Assembly (NCBI GenBank): GCA_903813345.2
Contig: CAIIXF020000124.1
Span: forward strand, 434,001-498,000
Direction of reading: 5' to 3'
Length of the DNA: 64,000 nt
Source of the DNA: Owenia fusiformis
Taxonomy: Eukaryota > Annelida > Polychaeta > Sabellida > Oweniidae
Part shown: one piece after another, positions 1 through 40,660 of the stretch
How the letters are laid out: every line of letters begins with the position of its first letter
How positions within the stretch are numbered: the first letter of the stretch is position 1
Made by a program: the position numbers and the translations under genes
The notes under the pieces: generated by a model
What the model was told of the DNA's origin: nothing
Seen by the model: the letters and a program-made list of their open reading frames with translations, nothing else
Databases searched by the model: none

Positions 1-2640
1 TGCAAGTTGGCCATCGTTTGACTCTTTCAAATATATCAGAGTCTGCCTCTCATTATCATGATATTTTTGGCAAGTTTCATGACATGACTCCGAATACTTA
101 AATCTATTCTTATTTGCTGAAAACTTGGACAAAACTGAAAGATGGTAAAGCATTTGAGTCTAAGTACAACTGATAATATCTCCATCATTCTTGACCTTAT
201 AAAGTACTTGTTCCCTCTGTCTTTATTACATAATTTAAGTGATACTCGTTGTAAAAATAAGATAAAAAGAAGCCCTGGGATCAGCTATGACTTTTAATGG
301 CCATTAAAGGTATATTCTTAGACGGGCAGATTCTTTCACTTAAAGGAGCATTAGAGCCAAGCAATAAGCGCCCTAATTGAAATAACACGTTTAGAAAGGT
401 ATAAAGCCACGTGGGAAGTCCCAACAGTTATGTGAGTTTTTTTTTTCTTTTTGTGGAAGAAGAACTTGACGGAGAATACTATAAGTTATTGGACATTGAA
501 ACCTATTGGCTATAAACTAGAGATGCAACGTGCAAAATATAATTTTGTGAAAAAAACTAACAAAATATAATAATAATTTTGTGGAAACAAAATGTGTGGA
601 CAATTTTGTAAAGAATCATCCTGCAGGTTGGCGTGATGCACCCCTAGAATGATATATTTTTCGAATGTAACTAACCTAAGGAAGGTCAGACAGTCAGAAT
701 GAGGCCAAGCAGGTTCATGAAATATATTCAAGCCTTGGCAAAAGTCTATGTATTTCTAAGTATGTCTTACAAACTCATTACCTGTCTGTTCACGTATTTA
801 GGACGTTAAACCGATTCATAACAAAATGTTTTCTGAAAAGGTTTGCTGTCCCTCAACTCCGCCTTAACACATGTGTCTAAACTTATTTTTTGCGTTTCGC
901 GATTTGTAAAAAATAATTTCATCTTAGACATTTATTCTCGATCTATTGTTATTTAGGAGAAAATTATTATATGACATTTTATAACAAGCTTAATCAGGCT
1001 TGATGGAGGGTCGGGTTTGTAAACCTACGAATGCAATGTGTTCTTTCACTTGTTAAGAGAATCGGACAAAAGTACTCTCAATCCAAGCCCAAAAAGAAAA
1101 ATCTCTGCATTCACAAATAAACTCCAAAAGGCTAGACAATAGCAATGTTGATTGCCACGTGTACACAGTTGTTAGATTGATTGAACGCATCAATCTCTTT
1201 TTGGAGCAGCCATACATGTACCATCGAACAATTATATAAAGGTAAACAAGGTGAATGGTGGATTTTAAAAGTTTACAATGTTACAGCGTTTGCAAATAAT
1301 TTAGGCATTACATTAGTTCTGTCTTTCAAACTTACGAAACGTCTGATTGCGATGGTCAACTTAATAACGTATAAAGGTGAAAGATATTCTTCTGTTTTTT
1401 CTTCAATTGGTGGATTATTTTTGGATCAGAGGTAGAGGTTCATGAGCCATTGGCTAATATGACGCAAGCAGCCTGTATACTAGTATCAATAGAATAGACC
1501 TACTGTATTGTAGTATTTCAGGCATTTTATCTGATTTCCTTCATGTTTTGAGTATTAACCACCCTCCCTCAAATTTAAAGTAACATTTCCCAACTGTTGA
1601 TATATTTGGACAGATTTGCTTCTACTTATTAGTCAGCGGATGTTCCACACACATGTACATCATATTGGAATTTACCTGCTTGCTTTAGATCAGCTTTGAA
1701 GATAAGAGTCCCCTGATAAGGCCTATCGTTTCTTCAAAAATAAAACAAGAAACGTGTTTCGGAAGCAACGACCAATATTATCAAATCGTAGCCAAAATAG
1801 AAAAACAATATGACAATTACATAGAGTACTATCCAATAATTCTTAAGGGTATCGAGTAGAAGCCCCGAGTAGAAGAGCTAATATTTCTCTTAGTGGAAAA
1901 GCATGTCCATGGCATAACGATAACTTCAGTTGCAGGTCATTCCCGGCACACTAGCAGTTACACTTCTAATAGTAGACCTTAATATTTATGACTTAGGACA
2001 CCTGCCAAAATAACAGCAATTATGGATAAGTAAGTGAAGTAATGATGTGACTATTTGTTTAGTATAGAGTAGATTGTTCTTAGTTGCATAATTTGCAAGC
2101 ATAAGTGAAGAACATACAGAGAACATATGATAACTCATATTACTTATGAGCTTGAGTCACAAATAGATTTTCAACCATCCATCATGATAAACAATGACAT
2201 CACATTTCTTCTCATCATTGAAACACGTTTCTGGTGAAACATAAAGATGTTAAAAGTATCAGAATGATATTTACTCAAGTTACTCCAAATTAGTTCTCAA
2301 TCCGTCATATCCGGGCTGATAAACACTACTATCACCAAATTAGTTCTCATTACGTTCTCGAAACGGGCTCAAACTGTGTGCGAACGGATTGGACGCACCG
2401 TTTTGGGTATATCTACAAACTTCATGAACGAACTTGAACAGGTAGGTCCTCCGGGACTTATAGTTTGCTCCAAAAGTTCCGGTGGTCGCCAGGTTTTACA
2501 ATAAGAATATGTGACAACGTGAAATATAGCTATCAGACCGAGCTAGTTGTCATTGCGTTCTTCTACTGATGAACACAGTGAATGCCGAACGTGCGACGGT
2601 GTCACAAATTAGGCTTTTAATGTAATTAATTACACTAATT
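1..2640. other. intergenic, no gene seen
   Basis: AT-rich sequence with only short open frames interrupted by stops. I see no protein similarity, no convincing splice-bounded exon and no long repeat. The longest open frame (1181-1435, +) has low-complexity hydrophobic composition and no recognisable motif. Confidence 0.5.
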
Positions 2641-2730: not shown

Positions 2731-4380
2731 ACTCGTAGCAATATATAGCTTTGAGTTTTGGAGAAATGTTAAATGTTCATTGCATATAAACTCATTGAAT
2801 TCTTTGTCATCTATTGACAGACCTCGTGTAAATTCAAAGAACCAAACAAATAACATTGTCCGAAAGTTTGCGCCATCCTTCAATTCAATTTGAAAAAAGA
2901 TACCATGACGATTAAAACAAAACATACAAATAACATTTCTGGAGAGCTTTGTATAGAGAGTTTACTTAACGTTGTAGGTATATATATTCTCATGTATTTT
3001 CGATCAAAAACAACTTAGCTATTGAGAAAATATTGTGCTAGGGATAACTTACTTGCTAATCAAGAACAACTTTCTCGAATTCTAAATGCTAAAGAGTACA
3101 TAAGATATAACTTTCAGTCTATAGACACTGTGATAGAAGAAGCTAGTTAAAACTTTGCAAAGTCGATCGATTGCAAATCATAGACGCAAAAGCACAATGC
3201 GTATCATAGTTATACACCTGTCATGAATACTGATTGATCAGCTTTTGTGACTTTTTACCAGTTGTCTCCATAATATAAAACATATTCAACCAACACACGT
3301 ACGTGCTCTTTTTCTGTATATAGCAAATGGTATTCTAATGAATTCAAAAACTACTAATTGATTTCCCATCTAAATTCTTTCAGGGGAAAAGTGACAGCCT
3401 TTATTTTAAAACCTCTATTTTTCGCTTAATATGTGGCTATGCAAAATATTCGATTTGTAAATGGGTAGCCCTCAAGGAAGCCCCTTGATATATACATTAG
3501 TACCCTTTGAGTTCTTTTAATGGATTCTCATATTAATGGTATATATTATATAAATTGCAGCTTGATTCGGGTAAACAGAATATCTATAATAGCAATCTCA
3601 AAAGGGAGGACAACAAATGGGTTTGTATTGTCAAAGGTGAAGTGAGAAACTTTCATCACTTATCGTATTTGCCTTAATCAAGGATTGTAATTAGTATCTC
3701 TGTATCAATACAAGGTCAATCTTAACTACAAGGCTAAAAGACAGATCCACCCAATCTCGACGCATATTGTTGAACCTGCTTTCTCTTTTTCAAAATGGCG
3801 ACGGTAAGCGTCGATTGCAATTTTTTGTTTTATCAAATTTATCTCCTTGCCATGGAAAAAAACGTCATAACTTCTATCTGTTTGATCAGATATCTATATT
3901 CCTTTAATAGAACATAGAATTTGGATTTCAAGAAAATATTGGCATGATTTTCGAAAATATTACTTTCAACATTTTCCACTGTATTTCTTTGTATTTCTCT
4001 TTACCTTAGAAGTTAATGATTACGATTACGGAAGTGACAGATCCGGGTCACACCCGTGTAAAAACTAAATAACACAAGTTGACTGACAAACGTGGCATGT
4101 AAGATAATGGTAAAGTACTCCCATTAGGCATTGTTCAGACACATTGATTAGGTAATCAATATTGTCTATGAACCATTTGTAATATTCAGGTAAAATGGCA
4201 CCTGTTTTAACAATATTTCTTTTCCTCTCTCGTATCTAGCTACATTAAGTATACATACATGCTTGTAAGAACCAGGATGACTTTGTCACATATAGATGAC
4301 CTCATGTCAGTGTACGTCACCACCAATGGCACCCAAATATAGCCATTTATCAATACTAAGAGGAGGTAATAGTAGGTGCC
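2731..4380. other. intergenic, no gene seen
   Basis: AT-rich, no recognisable coding or long repeat structure on either strand. Confidence 0.45.
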
Positions 4381-6625: not shown

Positions 6626-8449
6626 GTGGTCACTACGCATCCCTCCATCTTATCCAAATATGTTATTAGATAATGAAATATGATACTTGTAGTGTAATCT
6701 TTGGATTTACAAAGTTGTATGACATTTGACGAGTGTAAAAGGTGTTTTTGGAGCATTTTTCTAAAGCCATTTTGTAAGGGAAAAATAAGAATAGGATAAT
6801 AAGAATACAGGCAAAAGCAATAGACTACAGATTTTCAACCTGGGTTCTTCATGAAATAACAATAATACCAGACGAGAGAAGGTAGACAAGATATGTTTTC
6901 CATTTCTCTGAGTTTCTAAAATGAAACAATTTCTACAAATTACACGTTTTATTGTTTAGCCCTACCAATCGATATTTGGAATCTATGTAATTATATAGGC
7001 TTTTGTAATTTTACGTTTCTAGTTCAAGCTATTTTCAAAATATTTCCGATAATAATCACGTAATAACACGTTAGGTAAAAACTATAACAATAAAGCCATG
7101 CTATGCTGTTTTTACTCTTGAACATTATATTTCTATTTCTATAATCTAATATCAGCACATCGATGCTCATGTATCTGAAATATTGGGCACTTTCCAAAAA
7201 TCAATACGCTTTTTTGACTAAATAATTACAAAAGCTTTAACTTCATTAAAGCATGCAAAAATTATAACTTGCCCCCACCTGGTTATGAAGACGTTACGTC
7301 TTTCCAACAAAATGGATGAACTTCCGTTGGAACTTGTTATTTTCATTAATTTCACAAACAAGGAGGTTGATTTGCATCCAAACATTTTACAAGTATGTTA
7401 TAATAGTAACATTCGTTACTGAAAACCTAGTCAATGATGAGTAAATATATCCAGCAGCTCCAATAATCGGGTAAGAATTCTTCACTTCAGCGACCAAGAC
7501 GTTATTTGGCAAATTTCATAACGTCTTGGTTGCCTTGTTTTAACGTCAACTAACGTACTGGTTGCTGAAGACGGTTGATCTAAAAACTCTTATTTGTCTC
7601 ATGAATACGCTCTTTTGCCGGAATATTTTTGAATATTTCATTGGATTCTGACGGTTAAATTCCTACTTAATGAAATATAATTGTTACTTAATACAAAGCG
7701 TTTGGTTTATTTTTCCTGACAAGACTAGGAATAGTTTGAACTATTGAAATCCCGGGAATAATGAAATCGAGGAAATCGATGTTAAATTAGAAAATTTTCC
7801 ATAAATTTGAGCAGCGGTATATTCATTGTAATTTATTGTAATATTTTATTGTTGGATGTCCGTTTTGCCTCACAGGGCATCAGAACAAATAAATTCAAAA
7901 TTACACTATTATTCATTTACATTCTAACTAATACATTATTTTAGGTTGTAAACAATAAACAAACATTGTTAACAATACAAATACATCATCGTTAGGTTTA
8001 GATGAAGTAGTCCAAATAAATTAATCTGCACACAATGAGACTGGCTTTCCAATGATATTTCGAATAATGAAATAAGTATAATACTGTATAACACAATGCA
8101 AAGTGCCAATAATCATTATTTGCTTAATTTCATTTCATATAACTAGAAAATAGTGACTTTTTTATAATAACAATGTTAAACACAAGCAAGGAGAAGGCAT
8201 ACTATTTCTGCGACCCCTTGGCTTTGACCTCATTTTGATTTTTTTCACAGTCCCACTCTATCTAAAACAAGTACTATTCCAGAAGTAAATTGAGGCTATG
8301 TAATGTAAACCAAAATACCCATTATAATATTGCGTAAAGATACGCGATAATGGCGCGTTCAAGTATCCCCCGAGCCACGCGCTTGCGCATCAGCTGAGAC
8401 TCATCTAAGGCAATTTCAGCTAGATCTAGACACTTTGAACTCGTATTCT
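6626..8449. other. intergenic, no gene seen
   Basis: No gene or long repeat recognised. A GC-rich patch near 8340-8400 contains a palindromic-looking 'cgcgcttgcgcatcag', not assignable to a promoter without transcript data. Confidence 0.4.
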
Positions 8450-10904: not shown

Positions 10905-11037
10905 ATGATTGAATTTGGATTGATAGCTATGTTTTTGTTCTACTTCAGCAGTTCTGGCCATACGTCTGCTGTTGAGTTTATGAATATGATAGAGAATCGC
11001 AGCCTTGTCGACCAGAGAATCCGGCCCAACCATAATG
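10905..11037 (+). CDS. channel exon 1: signal peptide and N-terminus
   Basis: The ATG at 10905 has an in-frame TAA about 20 bases upstream and opens a hydrophobic signal sequence ([18 protein letters not shown]). The mature start follows, ending RIRPNHN plus the first base of a Gly codon. The donor is G|gtaagt at 11038, phase 1. RIRPN next to GPP at the start of exon 2 matches the conserved GlyR/GABA-A N-terminus (R.RPNF.GPP). Any untranslated upstream exon is not identified. Confidence 0.85.
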
Positions 11038-14000
11038 GTAAGTAAAAATGCAGACCCGAAAAAGTTTCCAGAGTTATTTGAAAAATGAATATTTGTAATC
11101 AGAACTAAACGTACAAAATTACAAGAAACTAGACTTAATGAGTAAAATGTGTCATTTTCTTGGGATTAATCCTTTGTGGTATTGATAGATTCTTCTTGTT
11201 TCTCAAAATTCATTTTAATTTTGCACAATTGCACTGTTGGACAAAATATTGTATCAGGGGCTGGCCTTTAATTAGAAGTAAATAATACTTATTTATGATG
11301 AGTGATCAAAGTTTTATATTCATGGGCAAGTTGCATGGTCAAACCTTAAAAGGCTACAATAAAAACTTGGGATCCCCCAAGTTAGTAATTAATATTTTAA
11401 TATTTTATATCAGGTGTTCTCAACACCAGCGGCTTGTAATGCCTGTAATGTATTGAAGCATACGATATAGTTCTACGAGATAATAATGCTCATCCATCCA
11501 TCTACTATTTGCTGATTAAAACATGATACAATAAAGTTTACGTTTCCATCAAATTAATTGCCTTGACGAAATATGCCATAAGCTTCGTTTTTTACATCTG
11601 CAAACAATATCCCATTAGCCCTATTAATATAGTTCATATTTCATTATCATACTGCACTGTACATTGGAATTGTCTATGGCAAACATTCTAGAGATGCTAC
11701 GCCAATGTACAATTAACACGATAGACACAGTACGTATATCAGATAATATGCATTTACCCCCTCCCCAACAAACAACAACAAAGGGCAATAGTACAATAAC
11801 GTCATTTCTAAGGGCAATATAGTGAATTATTATGCACCTCATTAAAATACTCAAATCTGATTGGTTCTTAGTTGCTTGTAATTTGGCAATACTCTGCTCT
11901 TTTCTGAAAACTGCCGGATATTTTCTTAATATCTGACCCTTTCAAGAAAAAGGGTCGGATATTTTTTTCAATGTTTTTGCAACATTCCCACTTCAGAGTT
12001 TTAAAAATGCACTTAATCAATCACAATTACCCTTATCATTCAAAAGTTACATATAATTCTGCAAGAACGTCTCGAATAAATAAAAATTAAATTCCCGGGG
12101 CAAATATAGTCGTCCAGTGTAGCGAATAAACTGGCCGGAAGTCGTCTGAGTTTTGAAAGAAAAAATAAATAAATGTCAAAATAATGTCAACTAAACGACA
12201 GTTTAAGCCTGTACTCCAGTAAGTACTCCACTTAACTTTGATTGGGAGGTGCATAATAAAACAAATACTGGATGATCAGGAGCTGGATATGGCCAGAATA
12301 CCTATCCTCGAAAAAATATTGGGCTCGGCTGCCGCCTCGCCCAATATTTTTTCTCGAATAGGTATTCTGCCATATCCAGCTCCTGGTCATCCAGTATTTG
12401 TTTAATATTGGACCGAGGGCCGAAGGCCCAAGGTCCAATATTTCACTTTATTATGCACCTCATTAAAATACTCAAATCTGATTGGTTCTTAGTTGCTTGT
12501 AATTTGGCAATACTCTGCTCTTTTCTGAAAACTGCCAGATATTTTTTTAATATCTGACCCTTTCGAGAAAAAGGGTCGGATATTTTTTTCAATGCTTTTG
12601 CAACATTCCCACTTCAGAGTTTTATTTCTTAATAACTGGAGTACTACTTAAAGCTTACATCTTAAACTGGCGGAAAATAGAAGAAAAAAATGCACTTAAT
12701 CAATCACAATTACCCTTATCATTCAAAAGTTACATATAATTCTGCAAGAACGTCTCGAATAAATAAAATTTAAATTCCCGGGGCAAATATTTTTGTCCAG
12801 TGTAGCGAATAAACTGGCCGGAAGTCGTCTGAGTTTTGAAAGAAAAAATAAATAAATGTCAAAATAATGTCAACTACACGACAGTTTAAGCCTGTACTCC
12901 AGTAAGTACTCCACTTAACTTTGATTGGGAGGTGCATAATAAAACAAATACTGGATGATCAGGAGCTGGATATGGCCAGAATACCTATCCTCGAAAAAAT
13001 ATTGGGCTCGGCTACCGCCTCGCCCAATATTTTTTCTCGAATAGGTATTCTGCCATATCCAGCTCCTGATCATCCAGTATTTGTTTAATATTGCTCGCAG
13101 AAATGACGTTATTAGTTTGTTCAAAACTGAATACAATTTTGAACAAAATACTCAATTGGCCGGGCGCCGGCCGATGAATCGGAGCACATGTGATCCAGGC
13201 ATTATAGATCATCTAACCGAGATGGAATGATACAATCTGATATTATGGGGTTGATATAGTACAATATATATACTTGTTCTAATAACCGGAATATAATTGT
13301 AATGGGACTTAACCCGTCGTCCCCGGTCACCCAACTCATCGAAATTGGAAATCTGTATGTCTCTAAAATAAGTCCAAAATGATCCATGTTCGAATCAATC
13401 CTTCATTTATATGAGATTTACAGAGAGATTCAATGCTCCATAGGATTATATATCACTTTGGGTGCGCAACTCTAATTTTGCTCTTCTCTTGAACAGACGT
13501 GTGTAATCCTGGGTGTCCATTGGATAGCCTATTTAAATCACTTCGTGTTAGGGAATAATGGTGTTGACAAACTTTTCATAAGAGTTTTCTTCACTTCCCT
13601 GAAAGAATGCATTAAACAAGTGCACATGTGCTTGTGGCTGGGCATCAGCATTATCAGCCACGTTAGACTCATATTTGGACGAAGACTTGGGCCTATTAAG
13701 CTCTACGAATAAGAATAAATCGACTTCTGGACTTTTTATTTGAACTGTCAATCATTGCAACTTATTTTTCAGGTCCACCAGTTATAGTTAAATGTCAGGT
13801 GTTTATAAGCAGCTTTGGTTCAATAAGTGAGGTTAACATGGTAAGTTTTAAAACTAAATATTTCTTTCATAAATTCCATAATGTCTCAAAATCATGTTTA
13901 TGGTTTATAGGACAAAATTGATGGATTGTTTAAGTTGATATACCAGCTAGGTATATTAACAGGCATACGTGTTGTTTAAAAGAACTTTATCACTGTCGAA

Positions 14001-17000
14001 CTTGTAGAGGTGATGAACAATATTTGGTGACAATGCCTCAAAAATTCAAAATTTCGATATCAAAACGGTACAGGGGATATTTTGGTGCCGTTGAGAATCT
14101 GAAACACAAAGGAATTCATATATTTTGCTTAAATTAAAGTAGAGTTCTGTAGCAACATCAAACAACTGTTTTTATTGTTGCACGTAATCTAGAACTCTGG
14201 TTTCTCAATGGGACAAAATTCTCGAGCAATGATTTTCATTCACTCATCATCACCAAAGCAAAAAAAAGATTGTAGCTATCCTAGATTGCTTCCTAGGCAC
14301 TATACTAGCCAATGAGCTTATTTATAAAATAATAATCCAAACCCCTCCCGAGATTCGAACCTGGAAATGGCATTAAAAGATCATTGTGTAGATTGCTGGT
14401 TAATCACTATATAACTGACACTTGATGTGAAACAAAGCTACTTCTAATTATTTTAGATAACATTTTAATTATTTATTACCCAAGAGGTTCATCTCTCGAC
14501 CTAGAAAATGCAGGATTGCGTACAAGAGAACGGGATATGTTGATTGGCCCAAAAATACAACTATATCCGTAATCGTAGATGGATAAAGTCAATCATTATA
14601 AGACCCTCTTGAATTATTATCGCTACAGATTTCAGATAGTCATATGTTGGATTTTCAGTTTTCTGAGGTGCATATGTTAGGCCAATGTAAACATACGGGA
14701 AAAATACTCATACAGATGCAGATAAGATAGAGACAGGGAAGGTGCAAACAACCCACCAATATGTTTTTTCTGAAATGTTTTCTGATTTTCAACCCCTTCC
14801 ATCCCTGTTTTCTCAATTTTTGTTACATCAATATGTTGCACTTTGAGACACAATTGACCCCATTAAAGATATAAGTTCCTAATTAGAAAACAATATTTCC
14901 ATGTTATTTTCCCATAGGCAAAACTCATGCGATCCATTGCTTTCAGCTCAATTTTGGCCACCCATAACTGTGACAAAACGCAACACATTGGTGTAACATG
15001 AATTGAAAAAGCAGTGGTGGAAGTGGTTGAAAATCAGGACAGCATTTCCGAAAAAATGTGGATGGGTTGTTTACATCTTCCCTGTCTCAAAGTCGAAACT
15101 ATCTTATATCATCTCTATGAGTACTCTTTCTAGAGGTAATGCATTGCCCAAACATATGCACCTGTTTAAATCCTCAGAAAATAGACAAAATCCAAGATAT
15201 GACTGTCTAAAAGCTGTCGCATACTTTCCGTCTTCCTTTGGAGAAATCGTTCCCAATATCATTGAAAATGTTATTCCGCTGTGCATTTTTGGGGCTACAC
15301 TATGCATTCATGATCTGTCTCTCTTATTAAACACAACACCCTATCCGTCAAATCTATCACACCCATCATAGTCGTCATGGCATTAAATATCAGAATAATT
15401 AGAAATATATATCCGATGGCAGATACTTTCAGTTAAAAAACACTGCGTCAAAAACCAAATATAATACTCGTATAATCCTTTCACTTTATTAATGTTTTAT
15501 ATTATCAGGATTACTCGCTGGATTTTTTCTTGAGGCAAGAATGGAATGACCCACGCCTACAATATGAGGGTGGAAAACAGCGCTATATAACATTAACATC
15601 TGAAAGCATCAAGAATATCTGGACCCCGCCACTTTATTTCCCAAACGAGAAGAAGGGCGAGCTTCATACAATGATCATTCCCAATAAGCTGATTAGGGTA
15701 ACCCCCAATGGGACTGTCACCTATAGCATCAGGTAGATATAGCCTACGAATAATACACCCAACTTGATTATTTTGGACGATCGGTATCACTGATAACGTA
15801 TTTCGTATGACTTACTAAACCAAGGTACATGTATAGGTGGTTTTTCTTTGCTAATAGAGAGCTTAAGCTACCACTGTTTTTCACAACCTAAACGCGAACG
15901 TAAGATATTTAAGCGATGCATTTGTATGAGCGAATGGTCATACTTATAGGTTGGCGTTTCGATTTTGTATGCAAGCTTACACTCCTTATTGCTGTAAACT
16001 CTCCAAAGCATGACCTGCAACTGCCTTATCCAATGCTTAGAAGATCAGATGCAGGACATCCTTACGCATGTACATATTATTGTGGATATTTGATCTATAT
16101 CCTATTGATTAAAAATGTATAGAATTCTGACGAAAAAATCTCACCCGGGCCCGTAGTCATCTTGTTTTCCAAACAATTCCACTGTGCTCCAAAGCGAATA
16201 TACAGATTTCACTAAAGCTAGAATCACCGGGTATAAGAGGTCACAAAATTGCATTCAAAATTAATGAATTACTCTATTTGTCAAAGTTGAACTTCAAAAG
16301 TTGGTGTCTCATTCATATTTGGAAGTTAAAATCAATTTAATTAGTGTACAGGTCTCCGGCCTTCAGTTCAATTTATGTCATAATGTTGTACAAAATGTTA
16401 CATAATAACAGGCTCCAAGACTCGTGTTGCTGTGCGTCTGGAATGAATTATATCTAGTCTGGATTTTGAGTAATCATTTCCAGTATATCATAAAAGTATT
16501 AAAACTTGTTAGTGATCATGATGAAATGAATTATATTATTTGAAAAACGCTTGACATACGTATATATCAACTGTACATACATTCACATATTTCAGGTTGA
16601 CTTTAGTCCTGTCCTGCCCTATGCTCCTCACAGACTTTCCACTGGATACCCAGGAATGTGCCTTGAACATTGAAAGCTGTAAGTTACATTATCTTTGTTT
16701 CCATCGTTTATCCATTTTAAGCCATTTTATCCAATAACATATTTCAGCATACAAAATAATCAAAAGATACAACACGTCATAGCAAAATCAGAGCATTTAG
16801 ATCTGTTTTCCATAATTCTATTTACTAACACCCCAGTCACATTTGCGGTACAGAGGCCGTGCGTCGACCGCAGATCAATTAAATCAATGAATTTCTGCGG
16901 CGAGCGTAGAAAAATTACGCTCGCCTTGTGGTCTCCGTACGGCGTATCCAGTTTTTTACAGGCCGGAGGGTCGCCGTAAAATTATGACTCGGAGTTATAA

Positions 17001-20000
17001 TATTTGTTCATTTCTGAGGTCCCCGTAGAAATCAACTGGTTCAACAAGATTGAATCATTATCTGTCAATGTTTCACGATCACTTTTCATTTGATATTACA
17101 TGCTAGCACTATGAATAACATTTATAAATTGTCCTGATGTAAATAAAATGAAAAAAAAAATTATTTATCAATAGCAATTTAAAATTCACCGTGCGGCTGC
17201 CGTGGGAAATGTGACTGCAAAAGTATTAGAGTGCAGAAATTCTACGGTGAGCGTAGAAAAGCTACTGGCCGAAGAAATGATAGACCGCACGGCGGCCGTG
17301 GGAAATGTGACTGAGGTGTTACTGGGTTGAATAAGGGCTCAGCACATAGACATGTGGCAAAGTAATGATATGTCAATTACACGCAACTGAACTATACTGC
17401 TATACCCTACACAAATCATACTATATATCAAGTATCATATAGAAATAATTTCTGTCAAAAGATGGCAGCATAAACTTCAGTATGAAACTAAGTAATTTCT
17501 AAATGAAATGTTTATTCAATTTTTTAAAATGAATATGTATTTTAGGACGAAAGACGACATTAGTATAGCATGTTAACAATTTCTCTAAAGAAATTGAAGG
17601 TTAACTGCACTGCCATATTTTCATAAACATTTTTATCCCCCTAAGCCTTCAACTATTATGGCTTCTGATCAATTAGTTCAGTGTATTCGTTACACCATTT
17701 CGTAGACCTCTGTATTAATTTTGAATGTTCTATTGTTAACAGTTGATAATACATGTAAGCCCAAGGTTGGCTGGGTAAAATTGTTATTTTTTATATCTTA
17801 TTGAAATGTAAGACTGACCACTGTAAATAAATAAATAAAATAAATTATAAACTAAATGAAATCCTAAATTTGTAACAAATAATTTACTGACTTCTAGTTG
17901 TCTATGAGTCCGACGACATTGAATTGCAATGGCAACCAGACCATAGCCTTAAGAATCAGGGAGTCGAAATCCCAAGTACTGTAGGCTTGGCACAATTCAA
18001 AATAGATGATGTAAAAGTATCGAGTAGAAATCGAAGCTACTCGAGGACAGGTACTGGAGAGAAAAGCTTTGTTTAATCTGAGAAGGTTTCTACGAGATGT
18101 ATATACAATCTATCACACTATTAGTAAAACTGGCTTCAAATTTCGTCACGTCATTTCGGGCGTTAGAGTGATCGCATTTGATTTACCTCTCGTATAAACT
18201 CTCGAACCGAATACTATTGTGTAGTGACTACCATCTATGTAATTAACGTCCATTTTATTAATAACTTCAACTTTCAGCTTTGGATGTTTCAACCTACAAG
18301 AAACAGTTATAATTTCATGCCACCCTGAAGCATGACTTTACTGATTATGAGAGGCTATCCAATATGACTATTAGTCTGATAAATGTTTGGCTCATATGAA
18401 ATCCTGAAGGGTTGGATAAATTTTTGAAAACAACAATTTAAATTTAGGAAATGTTCCACAAAATATAATATCTTGGACTAATTACAAGTTGAATCATGAA
18501 ATTGATACCGTAAACGTAGAAGTCTGTATCTTATAAATTGCGAGTAGATGAATGAACCTGTTTAACATCTTTATGCAAACATACCAAGCGAAAGGGGAAC
18601 CAAATTTTGCTCCTATGGGAATTCGAAAGGGGTTTGATATGGTCAAAACACAATGCTATAAGCATCATAAAAAATATTGGATACCTCTTGTCATCCTATA
18701 CTGTTCTGTAACATTATTCTTACCTGTTCACTATGCGTTGTTGTGATCCTCTAATATATGATAACATGTCTTTTTCTATTAAAATGTTTGTTTATGCTAG
18801 TGACTAGTTCATATTAGGACGACTGTAACTTATACATCCGATTGGTACTATATTTAGAGGTTATGTCACTATGACGTGAAATATGCCTGAGTTCTCCCAA
18901 TATAGGCCGACCTTGGGAGGCTCTATATTTGGGCAAGAACGAAGGCATATTTCACGTCATAGTGACATAACTGATGTATTACATGCCTTTGTTCCCATGG
19001 TTACTTTGTATCAATGACGTGACGTCATGATATTATCATGGTTATTAAAGAAATCTAATATCAAAACGAGGTAAGCGGGCTATATCGGGGTAATCGGGCA
19101 ATATCGGTGGATATAGCTCGCTAACTTTCCCATTGACTTCCATACAAATGCTTCGCTAGGTATGTAATACTGAATGGTATGACTTTCGATGGCAGTTATT
19201 CATCTGATTACATACGATATAAACTCATTGATGACCACCGTATCCAATGGTATAACAATCATGTGATATTATTCTATCATATGACATTGGGTATGACTAT
19301 CATATAAAACTCGTATATGATTCAATGGTAAGGCCATCACACGATACTACATTCAATGGTATGATTATTACAAGTTCGCCATCTTTTCCAACAGGACAGG
19401 GTGTATTTACCAGGCTCGTGATGTCAGAGGATGTAGATAGCAATGCTTATAACGAAAATGGATTTTTTGAAAGTTTGGAAACGTTTCTACCTACAGCCCA
19501 TGCCATTTTCACAATGTATAAATCAAAAATGTTGACTGATTTAGTACATTTTTATTTGGCACCCATCGCCACACAATAAATCGTGATCACAAGAAGTGAT
19601 GATCCTTAATCCCTTTTTGTAGATGTCTATGATGAGGATGATATCAGATTAGTGTGGTCGGACGTTGATCCTATAGAATTTAGCCCCACCCTACAAATGC
19701 CAAGCTTTATATTCTATCATCTACCAGACACATATACCGATAAGGCTGTTTTCGTAACAGGTAGCTTGTCGCCATGGAAACCTGAATGAGTATGTTGTCA
19801 TTGCCACCGTAGTTTTGTGTAGTTAATGCTGCACCAATACAAACAAATTTTAATATTGGTACTATATATGATGGATGCATCTCCGTTTGTAGCAATCGTA
19901 TGATTTAAAAATTGCAAATGTAATATTGCAAATTGGTTAATAAGTGTTTGCTGATGATCCAAGTGATTCCTGTTGTGTGTCATTTTTCTTCACCAAAATA

Positions 20001-23000
20001 TCGTTCTCTCAAATATATCGTTCATGATAAGTGATTTATGAAACTTGAAGCACCATGCGTGGCATCATTGTGTCATTGTATGACATTACCGAATAACATT
20101 ACTTAGGATGAATGTAAAATAATACATACAGTATTATATTCATGATTTTGTGCAGTGGTCCAAGATATACTGTTATATAAAAATGAAATCTTAGTGAGCT
20201 GTATGCAAAACTATTGCGATCAATTAAAATTTGTAATATACTACTCGTGATTCACTGTGGATGAATTCGACAAGTGAGTTACGACGACGCATCCTCACAA
20301 AACTTGTGCCACTTTGTCGATTTCCTCAATAGTGGTATTCAAAACAAGTAAACAAATATGCACTTGTCTGCTATTAATGTTTTTGCATGGCTTTAATATT
20401 CTTCTTTTCTGATACTTATGCGATGCATGTGAAGGTCCCATAGTGCTCATGTAGACTCCCCTCCATTAGTTTGAGAATTGGGAAGTTTTCACAGGATATC
20501 ATATCAGCTTCTGTTAATGTCTCAATTTGTTCCTCGATTACAATAGTTCGGCAAATGACTTTTATTATTTTCTTTAATCGCTAAAAATTATATATTTTTT
20601 AAGAAACTTTACAGATTGAGTTGCAATACCTGAAAGTACATTATGCAAAGTTTTGAAGGCATTTGGTGCAGATTGATTTTAACAAAATGCCAGCACATGT
20701 CCTGTTACTTTTGGAACACCCTGCACACTGGTTTTGAACAGTGATCCAGCCTTGCGCTTACCAAACCTATGGTGAGAAGTGTATTTCCTACGAATGTACT
20801 CATTTTACTATGAGTTCTGTTCAATTTTCCAGGCTGCTGCACTGCATGTGGACGTAGCAATGTCAGATTAACCATTTATCTATTTGATCCTTCTTTGTTA
20901 ATGAGTTTAATTTATCAAAGCATGCTTCAATAAAGTTATTCTTAATTTTTTATCAGCATGCGTAATATGCTGATGATATACAATATGATATTGGTCATTG
21001 CGTTATGCATTGGCATATCGTGTAGTATAACAAAAAATGCGTCAATTCCTGAAAACTGTACCTAATATACGAGGCCAGACCAGAAAGTTTCTTAGCAAAT
21101 GCTCTCATTTTCTATTTCTAGAGATAATGCCATGCCCCTACCAAACACTGAGATATAAAATAATAAATAGCATTATGATAAACGATTACCAAATTAAAAT
21201 GGGTAACCCACGAACATCTAATGCACATTAGCCTATATGTAAAAGTAGTTATTAGATGTAGAATCTGTTTGTTGGTACTTAAATAAATAGTTAATAAGTA
21301 TAGCCTATAGCTATTTTCATATTCAATGGTCATCGTTTTCCTACAATCGCCATATAAGAATAAAATGTATTTACAGGTACTAGCCTACTTGTAATTCGCA
21401 ATGACAAGGCAAGTATGTACTTAAAACCCTTTATCACATCAAATATGTTGATTTGTAGGAAGTTTTTCCTCGTTGAGAGCAGTGTTTCATTTAAAGAGAC
21501 AGATAGGATACTACCTGTTGCAGACTTATATACCGTCGATGCTGATCGTAATACTCTCTTGGGTGGCGTTCTGGATTAATAAAGAGGCTGTACCTGCAAG
21601 AATAGCACTCGGTATCACTACAGTCCTCACTATGACCACACAGCTAACAGGCTCTAGACAAGGGGTATGTCAACACTCATCTTGATATGTAATACTTGGT
21701 TTCACTACAGAGCACTCGATATGTAATTAGGGGGTTGTGGGTTCGATTCCCCTCAAGGTGAAGTGACTTTTTCAGATCATTCCGCTTCATATAGAATTTG
21801 ATCATGTTTTAAAAATAACTCACTATGGCCACGCATTGTCGTTGTAGACGAGGGATATGCCTTCACTTATCTTTTAAAGGAAATGGAATATCTCTTTGCT
21901 GCAAGCAATCTTCACTAAGCATACCAATTTCAATTACAAAATTTTTGAATACATTGTAGTGGTATGTAGAAAATGTTTCAATTCATATTTTCATTTCATT
22001 GTCTGATAAATAGATCGAATGTATCCTGAAATAAAGTTACAGTCCTATGTATTTTAGAAAATATGCGTTTTTTTCTCTTTGTGCAATTATACCAAAATTC
22101 TGTTTACGTACCCTATATGGTTGTGGTCATAATTTTCATTGAAAAAATGCAAATCCTGGTAATAACACACGAACGGTAAGCTCATTTGGAAGCGTTTGAA
22201 AAACAATTTCGGCAGGGAAGTTACAAAACAGTACAAAATCGATAACAATCAAGTTCAATGTGATTTAAACACAAACTATATGATATATATACGAGGGGTG
22301 ATCAATAAGTAATGGACGCTTTTTTACACGGATGCTTTTTATAGACCAATACCTTCGATTTTCTTACCAGTGATACGTCATTTAATTATCTATCAACTCT
22401 GAAGATTTGAAAACAAAACATGTAATATATTTTGATATATCTTTATTTCCGTGAAGGAGGTATAGGTACCCACCCCGGGTACCCAATATGCTTTTTGCCC
22501 CATGTACTTGGCAAAACCTACCCTATGTCTGTTGCAGGTACCAAGGGTGTCTTACCCTAAAGCTATGGACGTGTGGATGGCAGCATGCATGTTATTTGTG
22601 TTCCTTGCCCTGTTAGAATACGCCGTTGTCAATGTTATGTCCACGGTTGAAAAAGATAAGCAGGCAAGGCATAGAGATATAGAAACTGGAAAGGTAATTC
22701 TGAATGTCCATATTGAGCATGCTATTCCAAACGTATTAGAAAAATGTTACCACGACTCCGTTGGTGAGAAAGAAGAATTTCACAATTATAAGTGACGCAA
22801 TTATAGGATATCCTATGATTTTGAGGAATATCGTTTTTAACTACGAAGTGATATTGATATCTGCAGGAGAGAGCAGAGCAAACGAGTGCATATATTAATA
22901 TCACCGAGTAGATTAAAATGATATTCTGAAAAAATCATAGGATGTTCTTATTGTCCTTCATTTACAAGGAGTGTATAATATCATTGTAAAATGAATTTCA

Positions 23001-23550
23001 TGCCAAATAGAGTCAATTTGGCGGGAAATCAACAGGCGAAGTATTTCCTCAAAATATCCTCCGCATATTGGGTTTTCCGGAGTATATCGTCACAATATCA
23101 TCTGCATATTGGTTTTCTGGAGTTTATCGTGGCGATATATATCCTCCGGTTATTCATTTTGCCAATAGATATCACAATTTATTTTTTAATGTTATTATAC
23201 ATTTATCACACTAAGTGTATGACAATACATTTCTATGTACACGTACCTATATTTACCTAAGATAACACCCCGTATACATATGTACCTGAGATTCCATTCA
23301 GTTAGTTTCGTGTTTCAGAGGTAAATGCTTTTCCTTTGATTTTCAGAAGGGTAATAAGAAAAGAGACCGTAGCTCAGTATTGGCTTATAACAAGGGAAGG
23401 GGTTGTACAGCGCAATATGTCGACAACTGCTCACGTATCATATTCCCTGTCTTCTTTGTCATCTTCAACTGCGCCTACTGGGCCGTGTATACTGCAGAAT
23501 TCCAGACTATGATCGTAGATGCATTCAACAAGATCAAGGGAGAGGAGTAA
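10905..23550 (+). CDS. glycine-receptor-like Cys-loop chloride channel (8 coding exons plus one alternative)
   Basis: This encodes a pentameric ligand-gated ion channel subunit for the plasma membrane. Exons at 10905-11037, 13773-13840, 15509-15732, 16596-16678, 17898-18050, 21459-21664, 22538-22693 and 23347-23550 join in phase to 1227 nt, giving 408 residues plus stop. In order the protein has a signal peptide, a ligand-binding domain with [11 protein letters not shown] and a 13-residue Cys loop ([15 protein letters not shown]), M1, M2 with the anion-selective PAR motif and [12 protein letters not shown]3, a loop of only about 45 residues, and M4. Internal exons of 68, 224 and 83 nt equal the vertebrate GLRA exon sizes I know. 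The GlyR-specific second disulfide in loop C is missing. Ligand unknown: glycine is possible, but GABA, glutamate, histamine or another ligand cannot be excluded. A 138-nt exon at 19623-19760 is an in-phase alternative to exon 5. Confidence 0.92.
11828..13100. repeat. tandemly duplicated foldback element with 141-bp hairpins (intron 1)
   Basis: A block starting 'ttatgcacctcattaaaat' at 11830 is repeated from about 12451. The second copy carries about 62 extra bases. Each copy ends in an almost perfect 141-bp inverted repeat, at 12261-12401 and 12944-13084, with arms reading 'acaaatactggatgatcagg' and its complement around a GC-rich loop. The outer ends 'ttatgcacctc' and 'gaggtgcataat' style sequences are also inverted. 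This looks like a non-autonomous foldback transposon duplicated in tandem or inserted twice. Confidence 0.85.
13106..13210. repeat. palindromic repeat fragment, related to 27950-28083
   Basis: Contains 'actcaattggccgggcgccg' and 'cgatgaatcggagcacatg', closely matching a longer inverted repeat near 27950-28083. It is followed by a similar 'gatccaggcattata' / 'ggccaaggcattaca' flank in both places. Confidence 0.7.
13773..13840 (+). CDS. channel exon 2 (68 nt)
   Basis: Acceptor 'atttttcag' and donor ATG|gtaagt. Phase 1 in, phase 0 out. It encodes [20 protein letters not shown] and then VNM, aligning with the GlyR segment around SFGSIAETTM. Its length equals vertebrate GLRA exon 3. Confidence 0.93.
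14341..14420 (-). repeat. tRNA-derived SINE-like fragment
   Basis: The reverse strand contains a B-box-like 'GGTTCGAATCTCGGG'. Spacing upstream suggests a degraded tRNA body, but I cannot fold a full cloverleaf, so a SINE or tRNA pseudogene is more likely than a functional tRNA. Confidence 0.45.
14705..15125. mobile_element. foldback MITE in intron 2, about 420 bp
   Basis: Left segments 'tactcatacagatgcag', 'agacagggaaggtgcaaaca' and 'ctgattttcaac' are matched in inverted order on the right by 'gttgaaaatcagga', 'ttacatcttccctgtctc' and 'catctctatgagta'. The 122-codon plus-strand open frame starting at 15003 overlaps this arm and is not considered a gene. Confidence 0.75.
15509..15732 (+). 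CDS. channel exon 3 (224 nt): loops D and A region
   Basis: Acceptor 'attatcag', donor ATCAG|gtagat; phase 0 in, phase 2 out. It encodes [19 protein letters not shown], then [18 protein letters not shown] and [16 protein letters not shown]. The FLR arginine (GlyR R65 position) and the YSIR arginine (R131 position) are kept. In GlyR these contact the agonist carboxylate. 224 nt is the size of GLRA exon 4. Confidence 0.95.
16596..16678 (+). CDS. channel exon 4 (83 nt): Cys loop
   Basis: Acceptor 'atatttcag', donor AGCT|gtaagt. Phase 2 in, phase 1 out. It encodes [20 protein letters not shown], then CALNIES. The two cysteines are separated by exactly 13 residues, the hallmark of the family. The length equals GLRA exon 5. 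Confidence 0.95.
16828..17319. mobile_element. 492-bp TA-flanked MITE in intron 4
   Basis: Termini are inverted repeats: left 'acaccccagtcacattt', right 'aaatgtgactgaggtgt', with TA on each side. The left arm continues into a GC-rich 'ggccgtgcgtcgaccgcag' that has a near-identical second copy at 32496-32665. No coding capacity. Confidence 0.85.
17745..17850 (+). mobile_element. LINE-like 3' end
   Basis: 'gcccaaggttggctgggt' followed by 'ttgaaatgtaagactgacca' and an AATAAATAAATAAAA tail resembles the 3' end of the LINE at 43452-44096 ('gcccagatagggctggttg' and an AAAT tail). It is a 5'-truncated fragment with no coding sequence left. Confidence 0.55.
17898..18050 (+). CDS. channel exon 5a (153 nt): loop B/F/C, alternative
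   Basis: Acceptor 'gacttctag', donor GGACAG|gtactg; phase 1 in and out. It encodes [20 protein letters not shown], continues through [15 protein letters not shown] and ends [11 protein letters not shown]. It aligns with the GlyR exon covering loop B, loop F and the start of loop C, but is five codons longer than the 138-nt GLRA exon. The position of GlyR C198 is Asn. Exon 19623-19760 is a homologous, in-phase alternative. Confidence 0.9.
18861..18970. repeat. 110-bp palindrome
   Basis: Arms 'ttatgtcactatgacgtgaa' and 'ttcacgtcatagtgacataa' are perfect complements for at least 28 bases. It lies in the intron between channel exons 5a and 5b. Confidence 0.85.
19623..19760 (+). CDS. channel exon 5b (138 nt): predicted mutually exclusive alternative to 5a
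   Basis: Acceptor 'ccctttttgtag', donor GTAACAG|gtagct, phase 1 in and out as in exon 5a. It encodes [20 protein letters not shown], then [14 protein letters not shown] and [13 protein letters not shown]. The start (YVYDEDDI.L.W) matches 5a ([12 protein letters not shown]). The length equals vertebrate GLRA exon 6 and aligns with GlyR without gaps; the C198 position is Asp. Including both exons would keep frame but duplicate the loop B-to-C segment, so exclusive use is inferred. The 5b isoform would have 403 residues. Confidence 0.85.
20695..20730. repeat. solitary mariner-like terminus
   Basis: 'gttacttttggaacaccctg' resembles a Tc1/mariner end and is nearly identical to 'gttacttttggagcaccctg' at 34989-35008. 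I do not find the partner end nearby. Confidence 0.4.
21459..21664 (+). CDS. channel exon 6 (206 nt): loop C end, M1 and M2
   Basis: Acceptor 'gatttgtag', donor CAAGGG|gtatgt; phase 1 in, phase 0 out. It encodes [20 protein letters not shown] (first Gly split with exon 5), M1 ([17 protein letters not shown]) and M2 ([17 protein letters not shown]). PAR at the inner mouth predicts anion selectivity. 6' is Thr, 2' is Ala and 9' is Leu. The position of GlyR C209 is Ser. Confidence 0.96.
21698..21766 (+). repeat. tRNA-Thr-derived SINE or tRNA pseudogene fragment
   Basis: 'agagcactcgatatgtaat' followed by 'ggttgtgggttcgattcccc' matches the 3' two thirds of a tRNA-Thr(TGT) body, with a good B box and TGT in the anticodon position. 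The acceptor stem and the D-arm start are degenerate, so it is not a functional tRNA. It sits just after channel exon 6. Confidence 0.6.
22283..22345. repeat. mariner-like terminus fragment
   Basis: 'acgaggggtgatcaataagt' followed by 'aatggacgctttttt' resembles a mos-type mariner end (GAGGTGTG/CAATAAG style). No transposase or second end was found nearby. Confidence 0.4.
22538..22693 (+). CDS. channel exon 7 (156 nt): M3
   Basis: Acceptor 'ctgttgcag', donor GGAAAG|gtaatt; phase 0 at both ends. It encodes [20 protein letters not shown] and [15 protein letters not shown] (M3), then a basic/acidic start of the intracellular loop ([17 protein letters not shown]). SY.KA.D.WMA..LLFVF.ALLEYA is the GlyR M3 signature. 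Confidence 0.96.
22780..22955. repeat. palindromic repeat in intron 7
   Basis: 'tataggatatcctatgattt' on the left pairs with 'aaatcataggatgttctt' on the right, with 'gatattgatatc' and 'ttaatatcaccgagtag' between. It resembles the palindrome at 32680-32822, which also carries AAAACCATA.AGGAT ends. Confidence 0.55.
23347..23550 (+). CDS. channel exon 8 (204 nt): loop end, M4, stop
   Basis: Acceptor 'gattttcag', phase 0 in, TAA at 23548. It encodes [19 protein letters not shown], then [20 protein letters not shown] (start of M4; SRI.FP..F..FN..YW is conserved), and a tail after M4 of about 19 residues that is longer than in GlyR. The whole M3-M4 loop is only about 45 residues. Confidence 0.95.
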   Translation, partial: KGNKKRDRSSVLAYNKGRGCTAQYVDNCSRIIFPVFFVIFNCAYWAVYTAEFQTMIVDAFNKIKGEE

Positions 23551-28555: not shown

Positions 28556-29869
28556 TCAACTGTAATACGGAAGACCGTGTGCTGGAACTTTCTCGTGTTT
28601 GTGTTTGTGCCACAGTTTCCACATGACAGAATTCTCACTGTAGGGGTATGGGTAAAATGTCACCATTCCGCCACTTAGGTACGACCCCCATGCACCAAAG
28701 CTCCCAACGGACATAATTGAGTGATCACAACGAGCCAATATGGCCAAGTCCATGCTGTCCGATTCACCGGGGCAGAAATGTGTACTAGGAAAGTTTAGAT
28801 GCTCTCGGGCCCATTTTGGATCGTCTGAACATATGATATAGCGAATGTTTGTTGGACTAAGAATTCGATCATAATGTTGCATAGTTTTGAGGAAATAGTC
28901 AACACTTGGGACACGATAACCTTTCCTGTTATTTTCTAGCGATAATAGGTCTCCGCGTCTGACGTGTACCCCGACGTTAATAGTTTTTTCGTTCTTTATT
29001 GCACTTGGTAGTGTTTTAAAAAAGTTATCAACCTTTGATTTTATGTCACTGTTGAATGTATACTGGTTTTTAATTTCATCTTTAATGTTTGTAATGTAAC
29101 TGAAGCTCCCCAAACCGTTGTAAAGCACGAAGCTAGCCGCCTTTACGTTGAATAAGTCTTTTTTGAAAGGTCCTCTACCTGATCGCACGGGGAGGTTAAT
29201 GTCTTTAGGCAGAGATCTAAGATCGAATATTTCTGCTTTAATGTTGCTGAAGATCTCGAGAAGACGGGAGTTTGAAGGTATGTACAGCGTCCTGTTCGTT
29301 TTCTTAGCAATCGCCCACGCAGAAGAGTACTGGAACATTTCGTCACCAAGGCGACCGTTCCCAGGAAAAAGTAATATTTTTCTTGGATTGTTCGAAATGT
29401 CTTCCCAGCTCTTGATCCTCGGTATATATTGAGTCGGAGTGTTTGCGATTGTTTTTACACTCTCTGTCATCATTTCTTTAAAGTCCACGGTGTCGGCTTC
29501 GTCATTCGCCTCAACAATCGGTTCTGAATTTTTACGTTCACCTTGCATATGATAAGTCTCCAGGGAAGAGATGGCACTTGGTCGAGCGTCTGGTTCGTCG
29601 AAACGACTTTTATAAACCATTGTATCGTACCCAAACGATCTGGCGTTTGATTTCCGACTGATCGCCATCCACAATTTAGAGTCGCCTAGCGGATCTTTGG
29701 TGTTGTTGGTCAACGATTGTAGTCCCCTGCTTCTCCATCTTGTCTCATATGAAGCTATCTTTAGTTTCGTATCTCTCTCCAAGTATTGGTCAAATGCAAA
29801 GATGAAAATGACCAGCACTCCCATCACCATTAATAACGACCGCTGAGTGTCCTGTAACGTTACTCTCAT
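28556..29869 (-). CDS. galactoside alpha-1,2-fucosyltransferase (GT11), intronless
   Basis: This 437-residue type II membrane enzyme is predicted to transfer fucose from GDP-fucose to the 2-position of galactose on glycans in the Golgi. A short cytoplasmic N-terminus precedes a membrane anchor at residues 12-30 (LLMVMGVLVIFIFAFDQYL). A stem of about 130 residues follows, then the catalytic domain. It contains GNGRLGDEMFQYSSAWAIAKK (from residue 170), the GDP-fucose-binding motif VGVHVRRGDLL (299-309), YIICSDDPKWAREHL (344-358), and the C-terminal motif DLAILARCDHSIMSVGSFG (373-391) with AWGSYLSGG. The usual GRLGNQMFQYA has DE for NQ here. The open frame is uninterrupted, so the enzyme should be active. 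The start was chosen because it gives the anchor directly and a TATA-like box lies about 95 bases upstream. Acceptor specificity cannot be read from sequence. Confidence 0.94.
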   Translation of the reverse strand: MRVTLQDTQRSLLMVMGVLVIFIFAFDQYLERDTKLKIASYETRWRSRGLQSLTNNTKDPLGDSKLWMAISRKSNARSFGYDTMVYKSRFDEPDARPSAISSLETYHMQGERKNSEPIVEANDEADTVDFKEMMTESVKTIANTPTQYIPRIKSWEDISNNPRKILLFPGNGRLGDEMFQYSSAWAIAKKTNRTLYIPSNSRLLEIFSNIKAEIFDLRSLPKDINLPVRSGRGPFKKDLFNVKAASFVLYNGLGSFSYITNIKDEIKNQYTFNSDIKSKVDNFFKTLPSAIKNEKTINVGVHVRRGDLLSLENNRKGYRVPSVDYFLKTMQHYDRILSPTNIRYIICSDDPKWAREHLNFPSTHFCPGESDSMDLAILARCDHSIMSVGSFGAWGSYLSGGMVTFYPYPYSENSVMWKLWHKHKHEKVPAHGLPYYS

Positions 29870-29960
29870 ATTGCTTGTTTCTCTGCTTAAAATTGATAAA
29901 ATCGAAGTTCTGTTATTTCAATGTCTCAACAGAGAACTAACGATTGCTATATGTTTCAAG

Positions 29961-38956: not shown

Positions 38957-40660
38957 TTCGGGATTTTGTTTTAATTTTTTCAAAATTTTTTAAAATCAAC
39001 CATTTGTATAACCATAATATTGAGAGGTCTAAAAACATGTTGTGTATGCTATTTTGTTCCAACAAGGTTCCGAAAGACATTTTATTTCATTCTCAAGAAT
39101 GTTTCTGTTTTTTACAGAATATTTTATCAATACCTTTCCTTTGGAAACTAGGGAGTGTTTGCCCGATACATAAGAAAAATGGTAAAAATAACCTTAACAA
39201 TTATAGACCCATCTCTCTCCTTAGCATTGTTTCCCAAATCATTGAAAGAATAGACTATGATAAAATGTACAAGCACCTTATTGAAAACAATCTACTTTAC
39301 AAATACATGAAATATCAATCCGGATTTTTGAAGGGTCATTGCAACGAATTCCTACTTCGATTCATGATTTCAATTGGTCAAACTTTAGTAACGGTTTTGA
39401 TACTAGGTCCGTCTTTTTGGACATTTCAACTGCCTTTGATAGGATACCACACCATCTGTTAATACATAAGCTGAAAGCATACGGTTTTTCGGGAAATATT
39501 TTGAATTTCATTACCTCATATCTCTCTAATAGTAAAATAAAGGTCACAATAAATGGTAAGTCATCTCAAACATCCCCTGACAACTATATGAATTGCAGTG
39601 TCCCTCAAGGAAGTATCCTTGGGCCGTTATTCTTCCTAATCTATATAAATGACCTCCTGATACTTTATCTTCAAAATGCTTTATTCATATACGCTGATGA
39701 TACATCAATGATTTTGCCAACAAAGCCAAATGACCACCTATCTCACACTCAACTCCAAAACGATATCTAAAAGGTAGAAAATTGGTCTGATATCTGGAAA
39801 CTTGAATTCAAGCCAGAGAAAAGCAAAGAGTTGATTTTTTCAAAGAACAGTAATGTAAACAATTATCCCCCAATTGTGTTAAATGGTCATGCGATTACTA
39901 GAACCGACATTCATAAACACCTTGGCTACTACTTTGACAATAGCGTATGTGGTTTAGCTCTCATTAACTATTTAGTCTCTAAGATTCGGACAGCTCTTAT
40001 CCAATGAAAGATCTGAAGGGAAGACTGAAGTCCAAACATCCCAATACCATGTATAATGCCTATATCCAGTCACTTTTTGACTACTGCGATATCCTTTACG
40101 ACGGCGCAAACCAAATTGACTTAAAAAAGATCAGTAGTTTACAGTACCAAGCTGGCCTAATTGTGTCTGGACCTCTCTTAAAGGGAGACTAAAAAATCCA
40201 AATGTCCCTTAACATTCTAAATCGCAGGCAAGAGATGTATCTCAACAGAGCCAGAGTCCACCTTATCCTGAAGACCCAGTTGATATCTCATAATTGGAAT
40301 AATGTTGACTCGCCAAATTGCGAGTGTGGGTCACCCAAGACCTTTAGACACTTATTTGCTGCCCCTTAAAAATAAATAAACTCCATCAATTCAATGAAGC
40401 CATTCAGTTAATTGTGAATGAAATAACACTTTATAAGACCCAACAAGACAAAAATGAACTATATCTCTTTGGTGATCCTGAACACACCCATGATAAATTA
40501 GACAATCTATTCCCGTTGACATCAATATTTCTTCTTGAAAACTGTTAAGGCTGCATTCATACATAATCGTAATCCGACTAACTTAGACCCCACCTACTCA
40601 AGCCCTCAGTGTAATTGGTCGCCCAATCTTTGTTGCAGCAGGTCCCCAAAAGTACCCATC
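38957..40660 (+). mobile_element. decayed non-LTR retrotransposon (LINE) reverse transcriptase
   Basis: Plus-strand reverse transcriptase of the Jockey/CR1/L2 kind in at least three frames. The first frame has GSVCPIHKKNGKNNLNNYRP and ISLLSIVSQIIER. After a frameshift near 39340 come VFLDISTAFDRIPHHLL, SVPQGSILGPLFFLIYINDL and the catalytic YADDTSM (about 39690). Stops occur near 39770 and 40190. A C-terminal thumb and a zinc-knuckle-like CECGSPKTFRHLF (about 40320-40360) follow. The 5' side lacks the endonuclease and gag-like ORF. Dead copy. Confidence 0.9.

Follow-up and report, generated by a model that had tools for sequence, protein, structure and literature searches.

Two homologous exons, here termed A and B, lie in series in a Cys-loop receptor gene of the annelid Owenia fusiformis, and they raise the question of whether one gene could supply two ligand-binding pockets on a common pore. 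The original prediction held that the two exons are mutually exclusive and exchange the loop B, F and C part of the ligand-binding domain. The window, which is the whole stretch of 64,000 nucleotides analyzed (G000:C124:434001-498000), was studied together with the rest of the genome, which was searched as 498,259,871 bases in 525 contigs.

The receptor gene and its two pocket exons

The window contains a complete gene for a glycine-receptor-like, putative anion channel on the forward strand (10905-23550). It has nine coding exons, counting the alternatives A and B:

10905..11037, + strand: first coding exon, with the ATG, a signal-peptide-like start and the residues before the ligand-binding domain; the start was picked by eye and by reading frame, and the donor is GT
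13773..13840, + strand: start of the ligand-binding domain, 68 bases, placed by reading frame and splice sites
15509..15732, + strand: common exon with loop D (FLRQEW) and loops A and E, 224 bases, placed by alignment with glycine receptor alpha-3
16596..16678, + strand: common Cys-loop exon, 83 bases, ending in GAA AGC T, in which the T is base 1 of the loop B aromatic codon
17898..18050, + strand: alternative pocket exon A, with loops B (Phe), F and C, 153 bases, phase 1 in and out, placed by profile, alignment and reading frame
19623..19760, + strand: alternative pocket exon B, with loops B (Tyr), F and C, 138 bases, phase 1 in and out, placed by profile, alignment and reading frame
21459..21664, + strand: common exon with the end of loop C, M1 and M2, 206 bases, starting with GA
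22538..22693, + strand: common exon with M3 and the start of the intracellular loop, 156 bases
23347..23550, + strand: last coding exon, with the end of the intracellular loop, M4 and the stop codon, placed by an M4-like motif and the reading frame

All internal junctions of the gene carry AG and GT. The exon sizes of 68, 224, 83 and 138 bases are presumably those of the vertebrate GLRA genes. Exons A and B were found at the coordinates originally predicted, with the same lengths, AG/GT flanks, phase 1 at both ends and the same peptides. The shared donor after 16678 and the shared acceptor at 21459 had also been placed correctly.

The homology of the two exons and their assignment to the loop B-F-C segment were confirmed by a leave-one-out profile, by Pfam and by matches to solved structures. 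The profile was trained on the corresponding exon (exon 6) of other genes and on three reference rows, with the window gene left out, and was run against 596 reading-frame fragments from both strands of 18 kb. It recovered exon B at an E value of 1.1e-4 and exon A at 4.1e-4 (set size 20,000), and no third copy of the exon was found among these fragments at E up to 10. Of 46 aligned residues, 13 (28%) are identical between A and B. The A isoform would have 408 amino acids and the B isoform 403, with a common stop codon. Both isoforms, queried without the first two exons and the last exon, matched PF02931 and PF02932 in Pfam, and with the exons joined the ligand-binding domain was matched at 6.2e-34 by the A isoform and at 2.4e-31 by the B isoform. 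In the same form, the best solved relatives of both were glycine receptor alpha subunits (287.4 bits for A, 294.9 bits for B).

The translation contains the Cys-loop, with two cysteines 13 residues apart, and a PAR motif before M2. We take this motif to be a mark of anion conductance, which is a prediction for this gene. A tree of the M1-M3 region (15 rows, L014 excluded) placed the gene between the vertebrate glycine receptor (GlyR) row and ten other GluCl/GlyR-like rows of the genome, with supports of 92/88 and 87/86, both under the starred level. From its translation, the product is predicted to be a Cys-loop receptor of the anionic branch. It is filed as GlyR-like only, because the second disulfide, that of loop C, is absent from A, from B and from the common exon.

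A copy of the region on contig C2 (18.04-18.08 Mb, reverse strand) is collinear with window positions 1-1500 (88% identical), the receptor gene and positions 28556-29917 (98%), in that order. This copy is read as the other haplotype, and an old segmental duplication is the conceivable alternative. There, exon A has 1 difference in 153 bases, which changes Val to Ala, and exon B is unchanged over its 138 bases. Both exons have intact splice sites, and the common loop D/A/E exon is identical (0 differences in 15509-15731). Four flanking intron stretches showed 103 substitutions in 4147 aligned bases (2.5%), from which 7.2 differences would be expected in the 291 bases of A and B, where one was found; the Poisson P of 0.006 is only rough, because divergence is patchy among introns (0.35 to 4%). 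In the intron between A and B, about 312 bases of the window (18855-19166) are missing from the C2 haplotype. This insert holds a 36-base inverted repeat (18860-18895 and 18936-18971, 94% complementary) and resembles a small mobile element.

Pocket residues and the loop C cysteine

The codon of the loop B aromatic residue is split over the splice junction. The T of the common exon would be completed by TT from exon A to give Phe, and by AT from exon B to give Tyr. One paper on these contacts equates the loop B aromatic with Phe159 of human GlyR alpha1 and reports Tyr or Phe at this position in inhibitory receptors; a cation-pi contact of the side chain with glycine or GABA was demonstrated in three receptors, and the agonist carboxylate is contacted by an arginine of loop D and a threonine of loop C (PMC4006026). 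By alignment with GlyR, the loop D arginine of FLRQEW is encoded by a common exon of the window gene and the TG at the end of loop C is kept in both A and B. This arginine and the threonine of the TG probably correspond to the known carboxylate contacts. The two exons differ in loop F and in most of loop C, and it is plausible that A and B subunits would respond differently to agonists.

In GlyR, the two half-cystines of the loop C disulfide are divided between exon 6 and exon 7. In the window gene, the cysteine of exon 6 is missing from both A and B, and its partner is missing from the downstream exon. The presence or absence of the half-cystine in exon 6 was compared with that in exon 7 for 22 exon 6 rows (20 from 13 genes of the genome, one of GLRA3 and one RDL-like; the L014 gene was excluded). 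The two agreed in all 22 rows, including all 11 copies of five genes with several copies. This agreement fits the use of each copy with its own exon 7, and common ancestry within a gene would be expected to give part of the pattern too.

Exon 6 duplications elsewhere in the genome

With the M1-M3 region as query, 23 matches reached an E value of 1e-8 or better. They were grouped as 14 genes, with the two haplotypes of the window gene counted once. Each of these genes was examined between exon 5 and exon 7, and five contain two or three copies of exon 6 in this stretch:

Window gene: two copies of exon 6
L003: two copies of exon 6 and two copies of exon 5, the Cys-loop exon
L004/L017/L018 (one gene): two copies of exon 6
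L005: three copies of exon 6
L015: two copies of exon 6; best solved matches GABA-A and glycine receptors

These copies are not haplotype artefacts, because copies within a gene are only 28 to 71% identical. Their splice sites are intact where read. The other sets of copies were also recovered by profiles built without their own gene, with the third copy of L005 scoring weakest (E 1.4e-4). In L003 (G000:C1:10961501-10971500, reverse strand), the Cys-loop exon is present as two intact copies of 83 bases each (3121-3203 and 3742-3824 of the reverse complement) ahead of both copies of exon 6, which would permit four isoforms. A sixth gene, L007 with L010 (G000:C1:4690001-4706500, reverse strand), has exons 3, 5, 6, 7, M4 and a stop codon, followed past this first stop by a second exon 6, a split exon 7, M4 and a stop codon, with no second exon 3 or 5 found there. 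This second set may serve as an alternative 3' cassette or may belong to a tandem gene that has been truncated.

Exons 3, 5 and 7 served as controls. Coverage extended to exon 3 of 10 genes and to exons 5 and 7 of 14 genes each. Of these 38 gene-exons, 2 were duplicated (fragments uncounted), and exon 6 differed from them with a Fisher P of 0.011. With the window gene removed, since it was ascertained by its duplication, the comparison was 4 of 13 against 2 of 35 (P 0.038). Exon 6 did not differ significantly from exon 5 alone (P 0.16, or 0.32 with the window gene removed). Two kinds of fragment were set aside: copies of the end of exon 3 in L008, and in L006 a short piece resembling M2 (8038-8115 of the reverse complement, E 1e-4). 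In L008 (5925-6368), about 54 bases from the 3' end of exon 3, coding PNRLLRIRQDGSIEYSIR, recur six times together with the start of the intron, at a spacing of 78-79 bases behind the real exon. Elsewhere in the genome, a small contig (G000:C155:638-18059) carries a tandem row of five Cys-loop receptor loci, of which at least four have the ligand-binding and membrane domains in one open frame and are apparently intronless there.

The exon 6 copies of L003 differ at 0.21 of nonsynonymous and 0.96 of synonymous sites, and those of L007/L010 at 0.20 and 0.76, as expected if both copies in each gene are under constraint. In a tree of exon 6 (21 rows), A and B grouped together (84/90). The pairs of other genes also grouped together, in some cases at very low support (35/69 and 42/0 at the lowest), and the three L005 copies did not; no branch of this tree was starred and some branches were very long. 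We lean toward several independent duplications of exon 6 as the simplest reading, with gene conversion within genes as the alternative. On a broader view, which we offer tentatively and hold as less than an even prospect, the loop B-F-C exon may have been a recurrent target of duplication in this lineage, so that two or three alternative pocket exons were gained several times independently and, in one gene, a second Cys-loop exon as well. A modest set of genes would then provide a larger, partly combinatorial set of pockets on shared pores, and some of the choices, such as Phe or Tyr in loop B, might switch the transmitter class.

Probable use of one exon at a time and comparison with known receptors

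From these data the locus is probably a single GlyR-like anion channel subunit gene with tandemly duplicated and diverged loop B-F-C exons, which are most likely spliced one at a time. A and B are tandem homologous exons of equal phase with intact splice sites, as in a mutually exclusive pair, and the use of one copy per transcript is predicted from this. The loop B-F-C exon would have been duplicated in tandem and its copies would have diverged into A and B. Duplication of this exon has also occurred in at least four other chloride-channel genes of the genome. The mature transcript would take either A or B, with the common upstream exon supplying base 1 of the loop B aromatic codon and the common downstream exon supplying the end of loop C, M1 and M2. 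The resulting subunits would share the pore, together with the loop D arginine and loop C threonine for the carboxylate. They would have different loop B aromatics and loops F, and their loops C would be unlike in both length and composition, so that agonist affinity or preference may differ.

Splice sites were scored with a small, family-based matrix (21 donors and 22 acceptors). Exon A scored 4.1 bits at its acceptor and 6.0 at its donor, and exon B 7.5 and 6.5; the means for constitutive exons of the family were 7.6 and 8.0. Weak sites would suit regulated exons and would equally suit decaying ones. It is conceivable, but unlikely, that one exon alone is used appreciably and that the other is in decay or is spliced in very rarely. 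Exon A has the weaker sites, a body five codons longer, a lower score against solved structures and a haplotype difference that alters an amino acid. However, it contains no stop codon, keeps the conserved Trp and the TG of loop C, keeps its splice sites on both haplotypes, and has one difference between haplotypes where about 3.8 would be expected from the flanking introns. Genome searches with A and B for retrocopies that would record the splice choice returned the two haplotypes, plus a weak match of B (E 3.4) in the paralog L006.

The reading frame bears on how many of the two exons a transcript could hold. If both were skipped, the T of the 83-base exon and the GA of the exon at 21459 would form TGA, leaving 169 amino acids. 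If both were included, the frame would stay open (454 amino acids) and the loop B aromatic codon of the second copy would become Asp. As predicted from the exon phases, the frame needs at least one of A and B yet permits both, and thus it cannot by itself force exclusivity. A stop on double skipping was rejected as a rule for the family: the acceptor is followed by GA in the window gene and L003, by GT in L004 and L005, and by GA again in L015 if its acceptor is TTTTAG, while L014 is not comparable, its exons 5 and 6 being fused. At 1.6 kb, the spacing of A and B exceeds what a steric block would allow. Among 15 inverted-repeat pairs, assessed without a shuffled control, none stood in an evident docking arrangement for an RNA pairing that would enforce exclusion. 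The open frame and the spacing would allow A and B to be included together in some transcripts, or one of them to be an optional extra cassette. We consider this improbable, as a doubled beta8-beta10 region should misfit the Cys-loop fold, the second loop B aromatic would be lost to Asp, and no such insertion was needed in any match among the solved chains listed. An assembly artefact, or a remnant of a neighboring tandem gene in place of one exon, is largely refuted and very improbable: tandem receptor frames do exist in the genome (C155) and L007/L010 has a second exon 6 past its first stop, but the profile scan found no further ligand-binding or pore exon between A and B, the exon order is the same on two haplotypes, and 28% identity is far beyond allelic difference.

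Mutually exclusive pocket exons are thus favored for several reasons. First, phases and splice sites are intact, each exon completes an isoform, double skipping gives TGA, the profile recovers both exons, and both are present on two haplotypes. Secondly, A and B group together in the tree, the half-cystines agree in 22 of 22 rows, exon 6 is duplicated in 5 of 14 genes, and synonymous differences are in excess in L003 and L007/L010. Third, there is a precedent in exon 6 of insect RDL, discussed below. The exclusive reading is weakened because A and B are in frame with each other and 1.6 kb apart, no pairing element was recognized, and the acceptor and donor of A and the donor of B are below average. 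It is also weakened because the sole haplotype difference in A alters an amino acid and because the double-skip stop is not general in genes with several copies.

The original interpretation stands in so far as there are two intact, homologous, frame-compatible loop B-F-C exons, each of which completes a receptor and both of which occur on two haplotypes. Its claim of novelty for exon choice in the ligand pocket does not stand, as the alternatives of exon 6 in insect RDL already vary loops C and F (PMC4019635, PMC2064938). According to these two reports, RDL has exon 6 alternatives c and d (6a/6b), of which splice isoforms are transcribed (PMC4019635, PMC2064938), and the same alternatives are present in Tribolium RDL (PMC2064938). 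Splicing of RDL at exons 3 and 6 alters agonist potency, and the choice of exon 6 is called likely to influence potency, since loops C and F vary (PMC4019635). In both systems an alternative loop F/C exon lies between the Cys-loop exon and M1 (PMC4019635, PMC2064938; alignment to 9she), and RDL exon 6 is regarded as the counterpart of A and B because of the published loop assignments and this alignment. The two systems differ in that the genes are not orthologous. The RDL-like gene of this genome is L009, in which one exon 6 was found, and the window gene scores best to GlyR alpha. Chain 9she is taken to be RDL, with its usual exon limits, and the RDL exon 6 alternatives are presumably far more alike than A and B (28%).

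Alternative exons also occur in other insect Cys-loop receptors, for example exon 4 of nAChR alpha4, exons 3 and 8 of nAChR alpha6 and exon 3 of GluCl, and those of nAChRs are believed to derive from tandem exon duplication (PMC2064938). These alternatives differ from A and B in that they concern loop D, loop E and the vicinity of the Cys-loop, or M2, and not a loop B-F-C exon. The vertebrate GlyR alpha genes resemble the window gene as the best solved relatives of both isoforms, but the window gene lacks the loop C disulfide of vertebrate-type GlyR. Their splice variants, as described in one report, also differ, since they concern exon 3 (GLRA2 exon 3A/3B) and the M3-M4 loop (inserts in GLRA1 and GLRA3) and not exon 6 (PMC3484359). 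A literature search of titles and abstract openings, with few subscription journals covered, found no exon 6 duplication outside arthropods, and no prior report of one in a GlyR-like gene or of its repetition within one genome. Within the literature so covered, what is new here is the exon 6 duplication in a GlyR-like gene and its recurrence in one genome, the choice of exon 6 itself being already known in RDL.

If the exons are spliced as proposed, A and B would constitute natural domain swaps with a common pore and carboxylate-binding face and with differing loops B, F and C. Such pairs could be used to test how Cys-loop receptors choose among glycine, GABA, glutamate and other agonists. The RDL type of exon 6 choice would also extend to other receptor genes, with exon 6 as a favored site of duplication.

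Other features were observed in the window outside the receptor gene. A single-frame gene on the reverse strand (28556-29917) encodes 453 amino acids with a Glycosyl transferase family 11 domain (PF01531, E 3.8e-27). A tandem array at 36525-38955 has a 186-base unit in about 13 copies with 68% matches, and a 79-amino-acid frame from it matched no Pfam family. A reverse-transcriptase-like frame on the forward strand (39285-39767; PF00078, E 4.2e-17) is part of a fragmented retroelement.
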